Part shown: in pieces, positions 29,037 through 39,809 of the stretch
Layout: the number at the start of each line of letters is the position of its first letter
How positions within the stretch are numbered: position 1 is the stretch's first letter
Assembly: GCA_028288985.1 (NCBI GenBank)
Contig: JAQGHE010000045.1
Coordinates: forward strand, 1-39,809
Length of the DNA stretch: 39,809 bases
Reading direction: 5' to 3'
DNA from: Candidatus Saccharimonadota bacterium
GTDB taxonomy: Bacteria > Patescibacteriota > Saccharimonadia > Saccharimonadales > UBA10212
The notes under the pieces: generated by a model
The model's database searches: none
What the model was told of the DNA's origin: nothing
Seen by the model: the letters and a program-made list of their open reading frames with translations, nothing else
Program-made: the position numbers and the translations under genes

Positions 29037-29671
29037 TTTGCGGCTCCCAGCCATTCTGAAATCGTTTCTAAGGCTTTCTTGGTGATAACTATGTTGTCGG
29101 CATTCATAAGGTCGAAGACATTGGCGTAGTTGGCCTGGACGGTCTTGACGTTAGATAGGTTTCTTGTTGCCCGGTCTACCAGGTCGTTCTTTTCGGCTAC
29201 TAATATAAGGACTGTGCCAGTGGCGCCAATTTTAGTAAGCAGGTTCAGCGTCGGCTTAATCTTTCCATCAGGGCTGGTAAAATCTTCGATTACTTTTACT
29301 TTATCTTCTTTAGCGGCCACTGTTAGAGCTTGGCGGATAGCCAATCTTTTAGCGCCTATGTTGATCTTCTTGGTGTAATTCTCATTGCCGGTCGGACCAA
29401 AAGCTATACCACCGCCTGTCCAAATCGGGTTGCGGGATGAGCCGAAGCGGGCTCGGCCGGTGCCTTTTTGGCGCCAAGGCTTCGCACCACCACCGCTTAC
29501 TTGGCCGCGCTTTTTAGTTACCGCTGAGTTAACGCGGCCGTTGGCTAGGTAAGCCAGGTAGGCCTGCTTCAAAAGTTCGTGTCCTTTAACCTCTACGCCA
29601 AACACGCTTTTATCAAGAGTGACTGCGGTAGCGGCTTTGGTGCCGGATTTAGTAAACGTAGCGACAGCCAT
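29033..29671 (-). CDS. rplD: 50S ribosomal protein L4
   Basis: KKRGQVSGGGAKPWRQKGTGRARFGSSRNPIWTGGGIAFGP. Confidence 0.98.
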   Translation of the reverse strand: MAVATFTKSGTKAATAVTLDKSVFGVEVKGHELLKQAYLAYLANGRVNSAVTKKRGQVSGGGAKPWRQKGTGRARFGSSRNPIWTGGGIAFGPTGNENYTKKINIGAKRLAIRQALTVAAKEDKVKVIEDFTSPDGKIKPTLNLLTKIGATGTVLILVAEKNDLVDRATRNLSNVKTVQANYANVFDLMNADNIVITKKALETISEWLGAAK

Positions 29672-30282
29672 TATTTGGCCTCCTTCACTACGATTACACC
29701 TTTTCTTGGCCCAGGAACGGCGCCGCGGACGCCGATAACGTTCAAGTCTGTATCCACCAAGGCAACCCTAAGGCGCTTGGTTGTTACTTGATCGTGCCCC
29801 ATGTGTCCGGCCATTTTCTTACCTTTGAAAATGCGCTGCGGGTACATAGAGCCGATCGAACCGGGGCGGCGGTAACTGCGGCCGCCGTGAGTCTTGCGGC
29901 CCCGCTTAAAGTTGTGCCGTTTAATAGTGCCAGCAAAACCTTTGCCTTTAGTAATGCCCGTGACATCTACGCTGTCACCTACACTAAAAACGTCGGCGTT
30001 TACTTTGTCGCCGACGCTCAAGTCATTATCAGATTCATTAATACGAATTTCGCGGACAATCTTGGGTGCCATACCGGATGCCTTAAAATGTCCATTCTTG
30101 GATTTTCCGTGGTTCTTGCCGTCCTCAAATCCGAGTTGTACGGCATTGTAGCCGTCTTTGTCGGTGCCCTTAAGCTGGGTAACCGTGTTTGGAGTGGCTG
30201 AAAGCAAAGTAACAGGAATAGACTCTCCCAGGTCTGAGAGTACCGTAGTCATGCCTAATTTTCGGGTAATTAACGCTTTCAT
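29671..30282 (-). CDS. rplC: 50S ribosomal protein L3
   Basis: ITRKLGMTTVL...TGITKGKGFAGTIKRHNFKRG...GSIGSMYPQRIFKGKKMAGHMG. Confidence 0.98.
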   Translation of the reverse strand: MKALITRKLGMTTVLSDLGESIPVTLLSATPNTVTQLKGTDKDGYNAVQLGFEDGKNHGKSKNGHFKASGMAPKIVREIRINESDNDLSVGDKVNADVFSVGDSVDVTGITKGKGFAGTIKRHNFKRGRKTHGGRSYRRPGSIGSMYPQRIFKGKKMAGHMGHDQVTTKRLRVALVDTDLNVIGVRGAVPGPRKGVIVVKEAK

Positions 30283-30429
30283 GGCTCCTAAAATTAGTTA
30301 CTTTCCTGTACATAAACCTTTGCTTATTTTTAGACACTCAATCTAATTAGTCCTGGTCTTAGCAGTTTCTACCTCTGTTCGGAGCAGACTTGCTTGAAGT
30401 TTCCAAGATCCATAAGTTATAAGTACCAT

Positions 30430-30468
30430 AACAGATTAGCATGCAGGAGGAACTCCTGTCAATCTGTT
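30430..30468. other. nested hairpin upstream of rplC / small membrane ORF
   Basis: Outer AACAGATT/AATCTGTT, inner GCAGGAG-GAA-CTCCTGT. Confidence 0.55.
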
Positions 30469-30594
30469 GACGATATTACATGCCCTTTTAAGCAATCTGG
30501 ACCAATAAGCATAAAAGTGTTAAAATATATTACAGTAGTTTTTGGTGTAAAACCGTTGCTGCTAGTAATTCGACAAGCAGATAGGAGAGATAAC

Positions 30595-31011
30595 TTGAAA
30601 AGCCGGCGCAAGCAAGCGATGGCCTTCGTGGTCATCATCGTCTTCCTGGCAATCGTTCCCGGTTACCTCGAAATTCGGAGCGCGACGGCATTTGGCGCTT
30701 ACTGCGTCTGGCTGATCGCCGGGATGTTCTTCGTGTCGCTTCATCTGAACAGACACGCACCGCCCGAAGGCGCAGAATCAGGTGCCGAGTTCATCACCAA
30801 GGCACTGCTCTTGGGCCTGGCCTGGCCTGCCTACTTCGCCGCGAAGGATGAACGGGTGAGGTATTGGCTCCACTACATACTCCCGCCAAAGAATCACGCG
30901 AACGCTCTGAACAACCTCGAACGAGGCTTCAAACGAGCGGGACTGGGCGTTGCGTTGGCGATAGTCGCGATTGCATTCCTCGTCGGACTGTTGCTCGGCA
31001 CGAACGCCTAA
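30595..31011 (+). CDS. small multi-pass membrane protein, TTG start
   Basis: RBS-like ATAGGAGAGATAAC before TTG at 30595; hydrophobic segments MAFVVIIVFLAIVPGYL, AYCVWLIAGMFFVSLHL, LALAIVAIAFLVGLLLG. The ORF-track extension to 30394 looks non-coding. Confidence 0.7.
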   Translation: MKSRRKQAMAFVVIIVFLAIVPGYLEIRSATAFGAYCVWLIAGMFFVSLHLNRHAPPEGAESGAEFITKALLLGLAWPAYFAAKDERVRYWLHYILPPKNHANALNNLERGFKRAGLGVALAIVAIAFLVGLLLGTNA

Positions 31012-31047
31012 CTCAGACCCTGCGGGAAGAAGAACGAGGAGGCTTCA

Positions 31048-31242
31048 TTGAGCAAGAGACTCATCAAGAAAATCCCCGCGGTCGATCCTCTGTGGAGGCT
31101 CATCGCCTACGCGCTGATCGTCATCATCGTCAGTCTGGTCATCGCCATCACGATGGTTCTGTACTGCGTAGCAGCTGCAGGGCTGATTGCGGCCAAGAGG
31201 GCAAAACGTCTTGGCTACAAGCTGAGGGCAAAGTTCGCTTAA
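31048..31242 (+). CDS. small single-pass membrane protein, TTG start
   Basis: SD GAGGAGG before TTG; LIAYALIVIIVSLVIAITMVLYCVAAAG. Confidence 0.65.
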   Translation: MSKRLIKKIPAVDPLWRLIAYALIVIIVSLVIAITMVLYCVAAAGLIAAKRAKRLGYKLRAKFA

Positions 31243-31319
31243 GCGCGGGAACTTACAGGGTGGCGGCGAAATTAAGCCGTCACCCTAGCGTAAAAAACTC
31301 CATATCTGCTTGTCGAAAA

Positions 31320-32531
31320 TTAAATCGTAAACTGACCGTCTTTATAAATAACTTTTTGGTTACCATCTTTTAGAGTGGCCGTGACGGTACGGTCTTCCGT
31401 AGAGATCATATCGGTATGGATTGCCGATTCGTTATAACCTAATTTAGTAAAAAATGTCCTCGGCTTGCCGACCGTAGAACCATCATAAGTATCGTGATAG
31501 CTGCGGCCTACCGCTATATGAGTATTGCCGAATTTTCCGCCCATATTTTCATCGAACAGCGTCTCAGCCATAAATTTAGTGATCCGCGACAGTCGCTTAT
31601 CAGTTAGAGAGAATTCTCCAACCTGGGATGCCCCTTTGTCAGTAGCCAGCATTTCAAGCAGCAAGTTCTCGTTCTGCTTGGCGGTGGCCCGAACAACTCG
31701 ACCCGACTCGAATTGTAGTTCAATGCCTTTAACTACGCTGCCATACCTATATAAAGGCTGGTTAAATCTGATCCAACCCTCCGTGCCTCGCCAATCCGGG
31801 GACGTAAAGACCTCAAAACTAGGTATGTTTCGCCCGCTGCCGCCCAGCCACTTGCGGTTCTTACCCATAGTTACGCGCAGGTCTACGTCTTTGCCGGTCA
31901 TATGCAGCTTTTCAATCTGCATTTTAGTCAATTTATCAGACACCCTTTGCACTTCCCGGCTGATCTTCTTCCATTCGGCTATTGGGTCGTCCCGGTCCAG
32001 GTAACAGGCATCTATGATCTGCTCCCAATACTCGGGTAGGCTTAAGCCGGCTTCTTTAGCCATACTAGGGGTGCCGTAAAGAGCCAATGTCCAGGTGTAC
32101 TTACCGTCATTTTCTTTCTTATCCAGCCACTCGCCTAGCGGCTTGCTGCTTTTAGAACTAAGCATTATTTTCTTAGGATCGACACCGTCCAATTCGTGTA
32201 CGTCGTAATCAGATATTACCGCTATGCGGTGATCAATTTGATCCACCAGCCCCCTGTAGTATTTACTGAGAAATGCGGTCAGCTGCTTGTTAGTGGCGTT
32301 TTCGTAAAAGTAGCGGCCCATGCCCGACATATCGTCGCCAAGGCTGCCGATTGTTATTCCTCCACTATCAAAAATGACCTTCCTGAGAGCTCTGTAAAAC
32401 GGCAGAGCTGATAGCGGACTGCTAAGCAGTACAACCTGGCCCTTTTTAATTCCGGTGCCGCCTCCCAGGGCGAAATTGACTAAAACTTTGGCGTACTTCT
32501 CAAGTATTTCTTTTGAGGGCTCATATTCCAT
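31320..32531 (-). CDS. M29-type aminopeptidase (AmpS/AmpII-like)
   Basis: HIAVGRSYHDTYDG and NESAIHTDMIS-type C-terminal motifs and overall length fit M29 aminopeptidases. Confidence 0.85.
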   Translation of the reverse strand: MEYEPSKEILEKYAKVLVNFALGGGTGIKKGQVVLLSSPLSALPFYRALRKVIFDSGGITIGSLGDDMSGMGRYFYENATNKQLTAFLSKYYRGLVDQIDHRIAVISDYDVHELDGVDPKKIMLSSKSSKPLGEWLDKKENDGKYTWTLALYGTPSMAKEAGLSLPEYWEQIIDACYLDRDDPIAEWKKISREVQRVSDKLTKMQIEKLHMTGKDVDLRVTMGKNRKWLGGSGRNIPSFEVFTSPDWRGTEGWIRFNQPLYRYGSVVKGIELQFESGRVVRATAKQNENLLLEMLATDKGASQVGEFSLTDKRLSRITKFMAETLFDENMGGKFGNTHIAVGRSYHDTYDGSTVGKPRTFFTKLGYNESAIHTDMISTEDRTVTATLKDGNQKVIYKDGQFTI

Positions 32532-32566
32532 TCTTTTCTATTATACAGAGCTCTGAACGCGAGTCA

Positions 32567-34015
32567 TTACTGCAGCGAAAAATAACTCCGAAAATTTGGC
32601 TCCCATCCCATAGCATAGTAATCACCGCTTAACTTCTCTTGTTTATATGCGCCTTGGTAATTGCCCTTCGCAATTGCGGCACAAGCCTCAGCTAAAACAT
32701 CAACCTCTGCCTTCGTGTTGTACATGCCAAAGCTGACCCTTACCACCCCCGGCATATGAGTTCTGTCGCCGGCAATAACTTCGGTTCTGAAGCGCTCAAT
32801 TTCCCTCTTGGACACATTAAGCAAGTGAGTTACGTAGGGATGGGCACAAAAACAGCCGCTGCGGATGCCTATGCCCCATTCCGTGCTTAAAATAGCGGCT
32901 ACTAGGCCATTCGGTAAACCGTTTAACTTGAATGGGATCACTCCAAGCCTGCCGGCTGAGTTCCTTGGGTCGGCGTCGCCTAATATACTCAGCCCATCAA
33001 TTTTACTTAGCTTTTCCAGAGCGTACTGGGTTAATTCCGCCTCGTGGGCAGCAATTTCATCCATGCCTATTCGGGTCAAAGCCTTGAGCGCTTTGGCGAG
33101 AGCGACGGCGCCCACAACATTAGGGCTACCTGCCTCGTCACGGTCCGGCGGAGCCGCCCACTCTACTTTACTTGTCGTTACCACATCAATAGTGCCGCCG
33201 CCGCATTGCTCCGGAATGCCGGATTCAAAGGTGTCCCTCCGGCCGATAAGAGCGCCGGTGCCAAACGGCGCATACATCTTATGGCCCGAGATAGTAATGT
33301 AATCCAGATGTTCCGGATCGCTTAGACTCTTCATCTCAACTTGGCGATGCGGTGCCAATTGCGCGCAGTCTACAAGGATTTGAGCGCCGGCGGCATGCGC
33401 CTTGCGGGCAATTTTGTGAATATCGGGCATGTGGCCTGTGACATTAGATCCACCGCTAATGGCTACCAGCTTAACTCTTCCCTTGTATTTATTAAGTAAC
33501 TCGTCCAGATCTTCTTCTAAAAGTCGTCCCTGGTTGTCAACTTTTACCCGCTTAACCTGAGCCGTCTGCCTCCAGGGAAGATCATTGCTGTGGTGCTCCA
33601 TCATGCTGATGATCACAATGTCGCTCTTGGATAAATTAAGACGATAGGAGAGTTTATTGATAGCTTCGGTAGTATTCTTACCAAAAATAACTACATGCTC
33701 TGATCCGTTGGCCTCAAAAAATTCGCCTACGATCTGGCGCGCATCATCATAGGCCTGAGTTGCTACCCGGCTTTTTAAACCGCTGCCGCGGTGCACAGAT
33801 GAATACCAGGGCATAAAATCATTCACACAGTCTAAAACTTCACGTAAAACGGGGGTACTGGCTGAGTTGTCAAAATAAATGTAGGAGCTTCGTTGGCCGT
33901 TCAGAAGCGGTACTTCTAAATCTATGCCGACAATTTGATCCCTCAGCTGCGCGAATGACTCATGGCTTGTACTGCGCGAGTGAAAGCCTGCTGTTTTAAC
34001 TACCATGTCCGACAC
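32567..34015 (-). CDS. class V aminotransferase / cysteine desulfurase-like
   Basis: YFDNSASTPVLREV, MMEHHSNDLPWR, ISGHKMYAPFGTGALIGR (PLP Lys), GIRSGCFCAHPY. Confidence 0.9.
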   Translation of the reverse strand: MSDMVVKTAGFHSRSTSHESFAQLRDQIVGIDLEVPLLNGQRSSYIYFDNSASTPVLREVLDCVNDFMPWYSSVHRGSGLKSRVATQAYDDARQIVGEFFEANGSEHVVIFGKNTTEAINKLSYRLNLSKSDIVIISMMEHHSNDLPWRQTAQVKRVKVDNQGRLLEEDLDELLNKYKGRVKLVAISGGSNVTGHMPDIHKIARKAHAAGAQILVDCAQLAPHRQVEMKSLSDPEHLDYITISGHKMYAPFGTGALIGRRDTFESGIPEQCGGGTIDVVTTSKVEWAAPPDRDEAGSPNVVGAVALAKALKALTRIGMDEIAAHEAELTQYALEKLSKIDGLSILGDADPRNSAGRLGVIPFKLNGLPNGLVAAILSTEWGIGIRSGCFCAHPYVTHLLNVSKREIERFRTEVIAGDRTHMPGVVRVSFGMYNTKAEVDVLAEACAAIAKGNYQGAYKQEKLSGDYYAMGWEPNFRSYFSLQ

Positions 34016-34055
34016 TTTTTATTTCTCCTATCCATAGTTACTATACATCACACTC

Positions 34056-34084
34056 TTGACGAAAACTAAGCATGAGCGTATTTT
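34056..34084 (+). promoter_or_regulatory. sigma70-like promoter for candidate ncRNA
   Basis: TTGACG-N17-TATTTT. Confidence 0.6.
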
Positions 34085-34089
34085 CCTAA

Positions 34090-34350
34090 TAGGAGCTCGC
34101 GAAAACGGGCCCTGCACAGAACGGGTGGGCAAAAACCCAGCCGAACTAAAACAGCGTTAAGCGCGGGCGAAGCTGAAAGGCTTCCGGAAGCTAAAAAGGC
34201 CAAGGCCGCGTTGACGTTCCTAAAATTCGCGTCTACAGCTCGTTAGCACAAAAAGCTACACTCAACCTCAAGAAAACAAAAACTTGAAGTCCGAGCGAGT
34301 AGGCAAGAAGCAAAGACAGGCTCGGGGTAAAAACTCGGGTCTGTTTTTTT
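34090..34350 (+). ncRNA. candidate structured ncRNA of unknown class
   Basis: No ORF >=60 aa on either strand; own promoter; helices GTTAA(G)CGCGG/CCGCGTTGAC enclosing GAAGCU-GAAA-GGCUUC; CGGgTGGG-CAAAAA-CCCAgCCG; TCAAG/CTTGA; intrinsic terminator at 3' end. Confidence 0.6.
34316..34350 (+). terminator. Rho-independent terminator
   Basis: ACAGGCTCGGG-GTAAAAA-CTCGGGTCTGT (11 bp with G-T wobbles) running into T7. Confidence 0.85.
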
Positions 34351-34390
34351 GATCCAGCTTTTCTACCCTTTTCCGATGTTACTTTGAGTG

Positions 34391-34405
34391 TATAATTTGC
34401 ATATG
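34391..34405 (+). promoter_or_regulatory. -10 element/leaderless start cassette
   Basis: TGAGTGTATAATTTGCATATG: TATAAT 6 nt before ATG. Confidence 0.6.
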
Positions 34406-34672
34406 TCCTTCGAACTTAGAGGTAGAAAAATTCTTGTTGAAAATGCTGAGGTTTATCCGAACAGCCGCACATCCAGCATTCCAGAAATGACAGTTAACGA
34501 TTCCGTACTGACCTTACACGCGATAGTCTTAGCCACAAGAGACCCTGCATCGCGACGCCAAGTTCCTTATGCATATACAGAGCCAGATCCTGATTCACCT
34601 AGAGGGATTTGGCTCAATGAAACAGATTACACAGTTATTGGGCCGGGGTCCGAGACGAAGCTTGCAAATTAG
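34403..34672 (+). CDS. hypothetical orphan protein (89 aa)
   Basis: ORF beginning MSFELRGRKILVENAEVYPN immediately after a -10 box. Confidence 0.6.
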   Translation: MSFELRGRKILVENAEVYPNSRTSSIPEMTVNDSVLTLHAIVLATRDPASRRQVPYAYTEPDPDSPRGIWLNETDYTVIGPGSETKLAN

Positions 34673-34844
34673 AACTATGCCTACGGTAAATGTTTGGTCT
34701 GAACGATGCCAATGTTTGGCTAGCCCTCCGAACTTGGCCACAGCCAGGAATAAAGATGGTGATCTATCCAAAATTCGGATCTTGAACAATTTCTAACTGA
34801 AGAGTCCTGACCAGCAGCCTAGAATTATTGGAGTAGGAGGCTAT

Positions 34845-35273
34845 ATGGCTAGTGCCGGTTATGGGGTATTTGACACAACCCTCTCGAAAACCAACCGAGT
34901 TCTAAAAGAGATCGAGGATACTTACGGCTGGCCTCGGGAGCGCAGGCAGCAATCTTACGATGCGCTGCGGGCAGTCCTACACGCCATGCGCGACCGTTTA
35001 ACGGTATTTGAAGCCAGCGATCTGGCTGCCCAATTGCCGATGCTGATTCGCGGCATTTACTATGAAGGCTGGAACCCAGCCAAAGTGCCCGTGAGAATGC
35101 ACTTGGAGGATTTCTTAAACCGTGTGCGCCAGGAGTTTCCATACCGGGTTGAAGGCGATACTGAAGAGCTGGTCAGGGTAGTCCTGGACTCCTTGAGTGA
35201 TTACATTACTGAGGGCGAACTGGAAGATATAAAATCTAACATGCCTAAAGATTTAGCTGCCATCCTCCCCTAG
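34845..35273 (+). CDS. DUF2267-family protein
   Basis: ALRAVLHAMRDRLTVFEASDLAAQLPMLIRGIYYEGW...LSDYITEGELEDIKSNMP; SD TAGGAGG. Confidence 0.85.
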   Translation: MASAGYGVFDTTLSKTNRVLKEIEDTYGWPRERRQQSYDALRAVLHAMRDRLTVFEASDLAAQLPMLIRGIYYEGWNPAKVPVRMHLEDFLNRVRQEFPYRVEGDTEELVRVVLDSLSDYITEGELEDIKSNMPKDLAAILP

Positions 35274-35295
35274 CGCCAGTTCCACCCTCCCTGTC

Positions 35296-36603
35296 CTAGA
35301 AAGCGAATGGAAAGGTATCTGGCAATTCGCCTGCTGGCGGATGCTCCGGATGTATTGGATGTAAGGCGCTGCTTCGTTCAATATGCATGAATGAGTCATA
35401 ACGGTCAGGAAGCACAGAAGGCACGTAATTGCCCCTCTCTTGCTCTGGGCTATAAACCACGCCTACTGCCCGGTGACCACGAGGCCTGTGGCTGCCTTCT
35501 ACATCTTTAAGTTCATGACTTAAAAGCAGTGCATCTTCACCGATATAATGGTGGAGATCTGCCTCCCAGCTCGACGGGATAGCCCGCGGAACCGGCATAA
35601 TTTCTTGCGGTGCATCCCAATATTTACCGGCTATCACTGTCCCTTCATATGTGCCGAAGCCGACAATGAAGACGTTTTCCCTGCTGCTTTGCTCCCGGAC
35701 AAGCTGGCCAACATTAACCATGCCGGCACTCCCCATATCCGTGTAGCGCGCATCTCCGACGTGAGTGTTGTGCGCCCAAACAATACCCTTCGCCTTCTCG
35801 CCGTAGCGACTGGCTATCTCGTAAAGCGTTTTAACCATGTGGCTGTCCCTGACGTTCCACGATTCATCGCTGCCAAGCATAGTCGCTCTGTAATACCGTT
35901 CGGCATTAACAGCTACCCTGGCGTTTTGTTCAGCATTAAATTTTTCTTCAGCATCGGCCACGTGCGGAGCTTCCCTGTGCCTTTTCTGCAGTTTAACAAG
36001 CAGGCCAATAACCTCATCCTCGCAGCTTTTTGGCATTATGGCGCTTGCGCGCGCGTAACCATATTCGTTACCCACATATGGCTCAAAGCAGCGAAAGATC
36101 TTGCTGACTTCAGGTAAGAGTTCCGGGTATTTGATTGTCAGATAATCCAAAACATTTTCTAATGATTCCCAGAGGCTGTATACATCCAAGCCGTAAAAGC
36201 CGGCTCGTTTATCTTTTGGTAAATTTAGATTGTGATCCTTCAACCATGTTATAAAGCGCGCTACTTCTTTATTGGCCCACATCCAGCTAGGCCAGCGCTC
36301 AAATACATTCAGAACCTCCTCTGCTGGAGTCTCCGTATAGAAATAGTTTTTAACGTATCTATTTACTTCATAGCAAGGAGGCCAATCGCCTTCCACGGCT
36401 ACGAAGTTGAAGTTTTTCTCCCTAATCAAACGCCGGCTCAAAGCAGCCCTCCACGCATAAAAATCACTCGTACCGTGCGATGCTTCACCGATCAGAACAT
36501 ACTTGGCCTCACCAATTTCGGCCAGCAGTCTATTTAAATCGTTACTTCGCTCCAGGCGATGGGCTATCCGTGCCAAACCTATTTGAGTAGCTGTTAATGC
36601 CAT
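35296..36603 (-). CDS. erythromycin esterase family protein
   Basis: IGEASHGTSDFYAWRAALSRRLI, VAVEGDWPPCYEVNRYV, VWAHNTHVGDARYTDMG. Confidence 0.9.
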   Translation of the reverse strand: MALTATQIGLARIAHRLERSNDLNRLLAEIGEAKYVLIGEASHGTSDFYAWRAALSRRLIREKNFNFVAVEGDWPPCYEVNRYVKNYFYTETPAEEVLNVFERWPSWMWANKEVARFITWLKDHNLNLPKDKRAGFYGLDVYSLWESLENVLDYLTIKYPELLPEVSKIFRCFEPYVGNEYGYARASAIMPKSCEDEVIGLLVKLQKRHREAPHVADAEEKFNAEQNARVAVNAERYYRATMLGSDESWNVRDSHMVKTLYEIASRYGEKAKGIVWAHNTHVGDARYTDMGSAGMVNVGQLVREQSSRENVFIVGFGTYEGTVIAGKYWDAPQEIMPVPRAIPSSWEADLHHYIGEDALLLSHELKDVEGSHRPRGHRAVGVVYSPEQERGNYVPSVLPDRYDSFMHIERSSALHPIHPEHPPAGELPDTFPFAF

Positions 36604-36693
36604 AGTACCTCTACACCATTTTTGCCTTTATCGAGGTCAAGTTCAGTGATTAATCTGACTTTGGGAAACTTTGTCTTTTGGCCATCAAGTACA

Positions 36694-36939
36694 TCAAGGC
36701 TGCTGCATAACCATGGCGGCTAACTTAGATATCACACGGGCTCGCATACTGGGCTGTGGTTTAGCTTCTCCTGCAGTCCAACTATTTACCGCGGGTATTG
36801 TTGCAGCAAAGAGATCACAAATGTCGTCGGAACTAAGTTGAAGTTCCTGCATTACTTTTAAAACAAATGGACCAAAATTCTGCTGTTGCATTAGCCCGTC
36901 TTTAAACTTATCTCCACTGTTTCGAATTTCTTCAATCAT
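36694..36939 (-). CDS. small HTH (XRE-like) protein
   Basis: LQLSSDDICDLFAATIPAVNSWTAGEAKPQPSMRARVISKLAAM resembles a XRE helix-turn-helix; SD CGGAGAATAAA-ATG. Confidence 0.55.
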   Translation of the reverse strand: MIEEIRNSGDKFKDGLMQQQNFGPFVLKVMQELQLSSDDICDLFAATIPAVNSWTAGEAKPQPSMRARVISKLAAMVMQQP

Positions 36940-36956
36940 TTTATTCTCCGTTAAAT

Positions 36957-36980
36957 TAAAAAACCGCCCTGGTGGCGGTC
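36957..36980 (-). terminator. Rho-independent terminator or attenuator in the HTH gene leader
   Basis: Minus strand ACCGCC-ACCAG-GGCGGT followed by a T-run, about 20-25 nt before the HTH ATG. Confidence 0.7.
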
Positions 36981-37111
36981 TCTTCAATGTCTTTGATTTA
37001 ATATCTTAGAAAGGCACAGAACAAACCGCCAACTTACTGCCGGTCTGCCACGTCAAGAAGGGGTTGAATGATCTCATGGCTATAGAATACCACAAGCTTC
37101 TTTTCCGATCT

Positions 37112-37618
37112 TTAAAGAAGATTCAAGGCTTTGCGGGCCTCTTCCCGGACTCCCCGGATGCAATCATAGCTATCAAGTTGTTGCTCTGTAGACCAAGCCG
37201 AATCGATAAAGCCTTTTTCAAGAATAACTTCCCCGCCCTGGTATTCGGCCATCAGGCTGACCATAAAAACCGGTACTTTATCCGGCCTAATAAACACCTT
37301 ATTTTTCAGAATCACATCGTCTCGGCTAATAACTGTGAGTCCGCTTTCTTCTAATGTTTCCCTCATCGCAAGCTTGCCAAGCACGTCCTCGACACCCTCA
37401 AGCGGATCCACTTCCTCTTCCTCGATCATTTTGGCTATGTTGTCATGCTCTAATTTACCGCCAGGAAAGGCCCATTTGCCGGGATGCACTTTCTCCTCAT
37501 TGCTTCGCTGCAGTAGCAAAACTGTTCTTTCGGCTGGGTTAACCACAACAAAGTTGGCGACAACGTACTGTAGTTTATCCTGTTTAGCCTCCGCAATCGA
37601 GATCTCCTGTTTGCTCAT
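37112..37618 (-). CDS. NUDIX hydrolase
   Basis: PGKWAFPGGKLEHDN...LGKLAMRETLEESGLTV (Nudix box with an insertion). Confidence 0.88.
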   Translation of the reverse strand: MSKQEISIAEAKQDKLQYVVANFVVVNPAERTVLLLQRSNEEKVHPGKWAFPGGKLEHDNIAKMIEEEEVDPLEGVEDVLGKLAMRETLEESGLTVISRDDVILKNKVFIRPDKVPVFMVSLMAEYQGGEVILEKGFIDSAWSTEQQLDSYDCIRGVREEARKALNLL

Positions 37619-37668
37619 CACTAAATAATAACATTAGCCGGCTCTATCGGCTTTGTTATCTCAGGATA

Positions 37669-37696
37669 GGAAAAGAGCCCTTTCGGGCTCTTTTCC
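37669..37696. terminator. bidirectional Rho-independent terminator
   Basis: Perfect 12-bp GGAAAAGAGCCC-TTTC-GGGCTCTTTTCC. Confidence 0.85.
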
Positions 37697-37834
37697 AATT
37701 TTGACTGGATTACTTGTTCATCGGAACAATCCTCCAACTACAGATTATGAGACTATGGCGCCTGAATCTCTGTGAAGTATTTAATTCAAAGACTCCTTCG
37801 CCCCGGCCGTCCTAGAAACTTTATTGTTATTTGC

Positions 37835-38215
37835 CTATTTTTCTATAAGAGCCAGGACGTTACCTGCTGGATCCTTAAACCAAGCAATCGGAGGTCCATA
37901 GTTAGAGCCTTCCGGCGGTCTAGCAATTCCTTTTTCGTTTTGGTGCATTCCTTCATACTGCTCAAACTTTACTCCCCTGCTGATTAGCTCATCGACTGAG
38001 GCGTCTAAGTCATCGACTACAAGATTCAAAACTGTGTAGGTTGCCGGCTGGTGATTTTCCTTAGGGTAGATAAACACCTTCTGCCCACCGGGCAAGTTTA
38101 AGTTCAGACCCATATCTTCCTTTACTTCTAAGCCTAAAGTCTCGCCGTAGAATTTCTTAGCCTCAACTAGATCATCAACCGAAAACCCGCTAAATGCATC
38201 CACTAGTTTAAACAT
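37835..38215 (-). CDS. VOC/glyoxalase-superfamily protein
   Basis: MFKLVDAFSGFSVDDLVEAKKFYGETLGLEV...PIAWFKDPAGNVLALIEK; SD AAGGAGAAGCTT. Confidence 0.9.
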   Translation of the reverse strand: MFKLVDAFSGFSVDDLVEAKKFYGETLGLEVKEDMGLNLNLPGGQKVFIYPKENHQPATYTVLNLVVDDLDASVDELISRGVKFEQYEGMHQNEKGIARPPEGSNYGPPIAWFKDPAGNVLALIEK

Positions 38216-38285
38216 AAGCTTCTCCTTCACTGTCTATTATATAGCCCCGCTCGGCTACCAGTGATTTATATTGTTATTCTGAGTG

Positions 38286-38300
38286 TATAATTTAGATATG
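38286..38300 (+). promoter_or_regulatory. -10 element/leaderless start cassette
   Basis: TGAGTGTATAATTTAGATATG: TATAAT 6 nt before ATG; near-copy of 34386-34405. Confidence 0.6.
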
Positions 38301-38783
38301 AGCGAAGATGAGCCACTTAGTCGGGAGCAGCAGCTTTTTAAGGCAAAGGACCAGTTCCGAGAAACAATGCTGGCAAACGACACATTTTTTAGAATAGTTC
38401 AGTCTAGGCTTAAAAGCGACAGCGAACTACCTGACTTCGGCTGCGAGCCAACTTATAAGGCTATTTCTGAAGATGCTGCTGAAATTGGGGTTGAACTAAG
38501 TTTTGGCACTTCTGGTGAATCCCAGGAACTGAGCTTTCGTTTCGCCCAATTGAATCACATAACACTCGGGACTGTTGAATTAGGAAGTGGCCGGCAAGAG
38601 CTTACGCCATCAGATGAAATAATTATGCCCGATGAAGAACTAGCCACTGTAGTCGAATCTTGGCAATCAGGCTGGAGCGAAATAATCAATTCCGTAGGTA
38701 AAGAAAATCTAGGCATCGACCCTCTTAAATACACTGTCGAACTTAAAGAAAAACTAGATGCCACTGTTATTTTGAGCGAATAA
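38298..38783 (+). CDS. hypothetical orphan protein (161 aa)
   Basis: Long ORF MSEDEPLSREQQLFKAKDQFRE..., followed by a terminator; no recognised family. Confidence 0.7.
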   Translation: MSEDEPLSREQQLFKAKDQFRETMLANDTFFRIVQSRLKSDSELPDFGCEPTYKAISEDAAEIGVELSFGTSGESQELSFRFAQLNHITLGTVELGSGRQELTPSDEIIMPDEELATVVESWQSGWSEIINSVGKENLGIDPLKYTVELKEKLDATVILSE

Positions 38784-38854
38784 ATATGAACACAGATAGA
38801 TTGAGCAGCGGACCACTGCTGAGCTCCACGCACTTCGCACTTTGGCGTGGAACT

Positions 38855-38882
38855 AAAAAGAGCCCTCTTCTGGACTCTTTTT
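38855..38882 (+). terminator. Rho-independent terminator
   Basis: AAAAAGAG-C-CC-TCTTCT-GG-A-CTCTTTTT. Confidence 0.7.
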
Positions 38883-38985
38883 CGGTGAAACCTTAGCCTA
38901 GATCGACTTATCCGTTTCACCACCGTTTAATTATCCGCTACTTTTGAAGCTTAGCTGTGAATTTCCTTACAAAGCAGCCCCACAA

Positions 38986-39201
38986 TCAGGAGGTTGCAGG
39001 ACGAAGCGCAATCCGGCCAATACCTTTTTTGCCCCGTGGGTGAGATCGGTCAGCTACGGATTCTAATTGTTCAGGCTGCTCAGGAATGTGCTCTAGCATT
39101 CGAGCTGCTTCAGCCTCGCGAGCCTCTCTAGCCGCAGCATAGGCTCTACCTGCTTGAACTCTTTGGCTCCATTCCGGATCGCGAGGTGACTTGTATGACA
39201 T
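38986..39201 (-). CDS. hypothetical small protein
   Basis: 71-aa ORF MSYKSPRDPEWSQRVQAGRAYAAAREAREAEAARMLEHIPEQ; downstream of 39208 ORF on same strand. Confidence 0.5.
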   Translation of the reverse strand: MSYKSPRDPEWSQRVQAGRAYAAAREAREAEAARMLEHIPEQPEQLESVADRSHPRGKKGIGRIALRPATS

Positions 39202-39207
39202 AAGGTA

Positions 39208-39468
39208 TTAATTTAGTTGAGGCATTGACGGAGCTTGCCTGCTCAGAGCCTCTGTAGCCTCTTTATGTACATCCTGAAACACTTCATTAGAATCCCTTTC
39301 AATTGTTACATGCCGCTCAAGAAGTTTGGCGCTGGCAAAGTAAACATGGTCCATTTTACTTGGCGGATAACCGTACTCTTCCGAACTGGCGTTACGAATC
39401 ACAACCATGGCGCCTCTCCTGGAAAGTGATCTGTGCAGCCGATTGGCACCGGATTCAATAAGTTTCAT
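39208..39468 (-). CDS. hypothetical small protein adjacent to rpsJ
   Basis: 86-aa ORF starting 2 nt after the rpsJ stop (TAA-CT-ATG). Confidence 0.6.
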
Positions 39469-39470
39469 AG

Positions 39471-39809
39471 TTACATTTTAATTTCGGCGTCACAGCCGGC
39501 TGGCAAAGATAGATTCATCAGTGAATCAATAGTCTTGGGTGTAGGTTCTGTGATATCGATAAGGCGTTTGTGGACGCGCATTTCAAACTGTTCGCGGCCC
39601 TTCTTATAAACGTGGGGGCTCTTTACTACCGTAAAGGTGCTTTTTCGGGTAGGCAGAGGTATGGGGCCGGCAATGTTAGCGCCCGTTCTAAGAGCAGTCT
39701 CTACGATCTGCTTTGCGGATTGATCAATAACTTTGTGATCATATGCCTTTAAGCGGATACGAATCCGCTGCTTCATTTCGGGTGCTGCTGCTGGTTTTTT
39801 AGTCTCTGC
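39471..39809 (-). CDS. rpsJ: 30S ribosomal protein S10 (frame open to window edge; annotated ATG at 39776)
   Basis: [39 protein letters not shown]...[23 protein letters not shown]; 11 in-frame codons [11 protein letters not shown] precede the ATG. Confidence 0.93.

Follow-up and report, generated by a model that had tools for sequence, protein, structure and literature searches.

A candidate orphan small RNA with an intrinsic terminator in the rpsJ–rplC gap of a Saccharibacteria genome

Gene content around the candidate

The stretch of DNA analysed here (the window, 39,809 nt) is one contig, C3, of a Saccharibacteria assembly of 0.77 Mb in 51 contigs, with a completeness of 88%. The − strand of this contig carries the ribosomal operon, and the S10 operon is interrupted at rpsJ/rplC by approximately 9 kb of accessory genes (Table 1). 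Comparison with relatives revealed that this gap differs among them, too, in size and content, which marks it as a hotspot of gene turnover with the candidate RNA inside it. As an earlier note on this DNA had described, no ORF of at least 60 aa was found between the aminotransferase gene and the ORF that starts at 34388 or 34403 on the + strand. A search of open stretches on both strands against Pfam gave nothing above the cut-off; one open stretch of 56 codons, lacking a usual start codon, crosses part of the region on the + strand. PADLOC returned nothing for the seven small ORFs given to it. A retron RNA, an omega-RNA and a CRISPR-associated RNA were considered and rejected, since the neighbouring genes examined included no reverse transcriptase, TnpB/IscB or Cas gene.

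The aminotransferase scored under the curated SufS cut-off, and its closest match was in a Candidatus Saccharibacteria MAG. SufS-like aminotransferases were present in just 5 of the 149 order genomes, the window's own counted, and many of the best matches elsewhere were from Chloroflexi; the rarity in the order and the Chloroflexi-rich matches suggest that the gene was acquired by horizontal transfer. Arrival of the RNA together with this gene was rejected, the RNA being absent from all Chloroflexi aminotransferase neighbourhoods checked.

Analysis of start regions in the window revealed TATAAT 6–8 nt before the ATG in five genes (34403 and 38298 on the + strand; 32531, 15239 and 12287 on the − strand), a layout suggestive of leaderless transcripts. 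The start regions at 34403 and 38298 share 24 of 28 bases. Because the ORF at 34403 carries its own TATAAT and has no Shine-Dalgarno sequence, it is unlikely to depend on the RNA, which thus does not resemble a leader of this ORF. Elsewhere in the gap, between the glyoxalase-like and NUDIX genes, a perfect 12-bp inverted repeat (GGAAAAGAGCCC-GAAA-GGGCTCTTTTCC, 37669–37696) is probably a terminator; the 120-nt window at 37611 that covers it gave a z of about −7 on both strands.

Table 1 Genes, predicted RNA elements and signals at the locus, with pair probabilities (P) from ensemble folding.
Feature	Position	Strand	Details
rplC	29671–30282	−	ribosomal operon
Accessory genes of the rpsJ/rplC gap	30283–39470		M29 peptidase, SufS-like aminotransferase, DUF2267, erythromycin-esterase-like, NUDIX, glyoxalase-like, small unknown ORFs
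SufS-like class V aminotransferase	32567–34015	−	divergent neighbour outside the RNA gene; Pfam PF00266, E 1.5e-86
Promoter-like site	34056–34084	+	TTGACG-N17-TATTTT; 9/12 consensus; 0.7 such sites expected in shuffles
5' hairpin	34090–34114	+	TAGG/CCTG and GCTCG/CGGGC, loop CGAAAA; P 0.75 and 0.99
Hairpin	34122–34143	+	CGG-TGGG/CCCA-CCG, loop CAAAAA; P 0.99–1.00
Long bulged helix	34153–34218	+	AGCGTTAA-CGCGG/CCGCG-TTGACGTT; P 0.80–0.99
Hairpin, exclusive with the next	34169–34184	+	GAAGCU-GAAA-GGCUUC; P ~0.21
Hairpin, exclusive with the preceding	34179–34192	+	GGCTT/AAGCT; P 0.73
Three-way junction	34231–34304	+	four helices; P 0.96–1.00
Junction closing helix	34231–34236/34299–34304	+	GTCTAC/GTAGGC; P 1.00
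Junction closing helix	34238–34242/34292–34296	+	GCTCG/CGAGC; P 0.97
Junction arm	34244–34258	+	TAGC/GCTA; P 0.96
Junction arm	34268–34287	+	TCAAG/CTTGA; P 0.98
Intrinsic terminator	34312–34350	+	stem of 15 pairs that extends into the U tract; T7, 34344–34350
Orphan ORF, 89 aa	34403–34672	+	TATAAT 6 bases before ATG; no Shine-Dalgarno
rpsJ	39471–39776	−	ribosomal operon

Predicted fold, terminator and promoter-like site

Ensemble folding recovered every helix that the earlier note had named, each at its given place, and corrected the picture in three respects. The bulged helix is present, but extends beyond the 10 bp originally assigned to it. The hairpin with the GNRA tetraloop can form, but is a minority conformer (P ~0.2) that lies 0.8 kcal/mol above the GGCTT/AAGCT alternative. 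The last two hairpins are real, but the three-way junction that they belong to and the 5' hairpin at 34090–34114 had been overlooked. The loops are A-rich as described, A making up 59% of the unpaired positions in 34090–34305, a value as high in only 1 of 990 background windows, although many coding windows of the contig come close, so that this feature is not specific to the candidate.

Folding energies compared with dinucleotide shuffles revealed a clear strand difference: the region 34090–34350 gave z −4.66 and −4.29 in two runs on the + strand, and −0.66 on the − strand, which folded no better than its shuffles. With the terminator left out, the values were −3.5 on the + strand and −1.0 on the − strand; only 8 of the 496 windows of equal length taken from the contig scored below the candidate in this form, which places it in the best 2%, and two of these eight overlap tRNA genes. 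The junction region (34215–34305) gave z −3.1 on the + strand and −1.1 on the − strand.

The intrinsic terminator with its T7 tract was borne out, with a stem of 15 pairs when those entering the U tract are counted. The region around it (34300–34352) gave z −5.65 on the + strand and +0.06 on the − strand; the terminator is predicted to act in one direction only, as it depends on G-U pairs that are unavailable to the − strand. The terminator scanner gave no entry for it, probably on account of the G-U pairs and the entry of the stem into the U tract. The match of the proposed promoter to the consensus was no better than expected by chance in this stretch, so that it is weak evidence for a transcription unit.

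Search for known classes and relatives

A search of the region with the covariance models of Rfam 15 (4227 families) found nothing at the gathering threshold, in agreement with the earlier view that the candidate belongs to no described class; under permissive settings (E up to 10), the best match was SorY at E 0.96, on the − strand and with 15.6 bits against the 111 needed. Neither ARAGORN nor cmscan found a tmRNA in the region, as had been judged by eye, and the genome's own tmRNA lies on another contig (G000:C42:21316–21722). The candidate is similar to tmRNA (RF00023) in having A-rich loops among short helices, but lacks its tRNA-like domain. The exclusion of RNase P RNA was likewise upheld, with no RF00010 match in the region at E up to 10; the region shares at most 17 nt with six family rnpB genes, which match one another at E ≤1e-28.

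RNase P RNA was detected above the cut-off in 9 of the 16 family genomes. The other seven, one of them 95% complete, were the window's genome (G000), G001, G002, G006, G007, G011 and G012, and either incomplete assembly or divergence of their RNase P RNAs would account for this. A weak RF00010 match on contig C44 of the window's genome was discarded, lying by eye in a protein-coding frame that resembles a C-terminal processing peptidase.

BLASTN with the whole element returned only the element itself in samples of the family (16 genomes: the window's own and 15 others, with no second genome of its genus), of the order (393 genomes) and of the class (393 genomes); the last two samples overlap and are drawn from larger groups, and some collections may omit near relatives. 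Family matches at E 0.03–0.9 were stretches of 15–27 nt only. No match to the element was found in phages and plasmids by BLASTN, or in viral contigs by exact-pattern scans. The single-sequence covariance model R1 likewise recovered only the window itself, both in the 16 family genomes and in a more strictly filtered run on 295 order genomes, and gave nothing credible in the rpsJ and aminotransferase neighbourhoods of relatives or in 80 aminotransferase neighbourhoods. As sensitivity controls, BLASTN scaled to one genome recovered tmRNA in 6/6 relatives (E 1e-45 to 1e-6), and in every pairing tried it matched one RNase P RNA with the other.

Since these controls were recovered but the element was not matched, it is not a housekeeping RNA that is shared across the family and evolves at a normal pace; by sequence comparison, the candidate is an orphan limited to a species or genus and seen in one genome. 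The proposal of a lineage-specific RNA holds only in its narrowest sense, for one genome. Lack of conservation, which the earlier note had counted against its own proposal, was thus encountered in part, as absence from every relative searched. With one sequence and no alignment, folding and function are not confirmable from sequence alone.

The region 34090–34350 has the combination by which small RNAs are recognised, a structured segment without ORFs that is followed by an intrinsic terminator. The candidate is similar to bacterial intergenic small RNAs in its length, divergent-gene setting, terminator and absence of ORFs, but differs from them in lacking relatives by sequence or structure as well as a known partner, and in being predicted from sequence. 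It would work like the ordinary intergenic small RNAs and be grouped with them, and belongs to none of the described families tested.

Interpretation of the candidate

Our preferred reading, to which we assign a probability of roughly 0.6, is that a free-standing gene at this locus encodes a structured small RNA of ~260 nt that ends at an intrinsic terminator, belongs to no described class and is restricted to a species or genus. The strand-specific folding, the terminator and the silence of Rfam agree with the stand-alone + strand RNA of the earlier note; the chance-level promoter and the lack of conservation count against it. The gene would be transcribed on the + strand, pointing away from the SufS-like gene, with its promoter near 34056, and the 5' hairpins, the bulged helix and the three-way junction would fold as predicted. 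The RNA would act in trans; most likely it would adopt a compact fold and use its A-rich loops and linkers to touch a protein or a second RNA, the contact step being our guess.

An unlikely alternative is a cis-acting 5' leader, in which the structured domain would govern the terminator and hence read-through into the ORF at 34403, perhaps also into the DUF2267 gene. The terminator ends 52 bases upstream of this ORF on the same strand, and the candidate shares with attenuating leaders and riboswitches a structured domain followed by a terminator and a possible antiterminator pairing: UCCGAGC (34290–34296) has two possible partners, one within the three-way junction and the other in the 5' arm of the terminator, and at transcript ends 34326–34335 the predicted proportions were ~0.33–0.37 for the junction and 0.64–0.67 for the antiterminator. 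The near-isoenergetic hairpin switch at 34169–34192 is also consistent with such a leader. However, 22% of shuffled upstream sequences could pair just as strongly with this arm, the antiterminator duplex not being above chance, and the full-length transcript strongly prefers the terminator (−93.3 versus −81.2 kcal/mol). Unlike the genes behind attenuating leaders, moreover, the downstream ORF seems to own a leaderless promoter, as judged from its TATAAT, its start region like that at 38298 and its lack of a Shine-Dalgarno sequence, and the DUF2267 gene has a Shine-Dalgarno sequence of its own. We favour a stand-alone, trans-acting RNA over a leader because the ORF looks leaderless and because shuffled sequences match the antiterminator duplex so often.

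It is also conceivable, if doubtful, that the terminator alone is functional and that the hairpins upstream of it are chance pairings in an accessory island, for example in a decayed gene. The absence of conservation in the family, order and class samples, the chance-level promoter, the 56-codon open stretch on the + strand and the position in a hotspot of gene turnover are all in line with chance pairing, but the strand difference in folding persists when the terminator is excluded, and the open stretches scanned had no protein-family match. That the candidate is a housekeeping RNA changed beyond easy recognition, for instance the RNase P RNA otherwise missing from this incomplete genome, is highly improbable. 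The genome has no RF00010 match over the cut-off, an absence explainable by an assembly just 88% complete, and short words resembling RNase P motifs are visible by eye; against this stand the silence of the Rfam RNase P models on the region and the family rnpB genes, so readily matched to one another and so little to the candidate.

We consider it quite improbable that the candidate is the first known member of a new class of Patescibacteria structured RNAs, combining a three-way-junction domain with a bulged helix that switches between two hairpins, and that it would act as a protein-bound RNA or a new kind of ligand-sensing leader. A literature search of open-licence papers found none that dealt specifically with structured or regulatory RNAs in Saccharibacteria. 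The candidate is at present a single orphan whose folding statistics are good and which lacks comparative support; a free-standing RNA encoded by so reduced a genome (~0.8 Mb) would offer a concrete test case.
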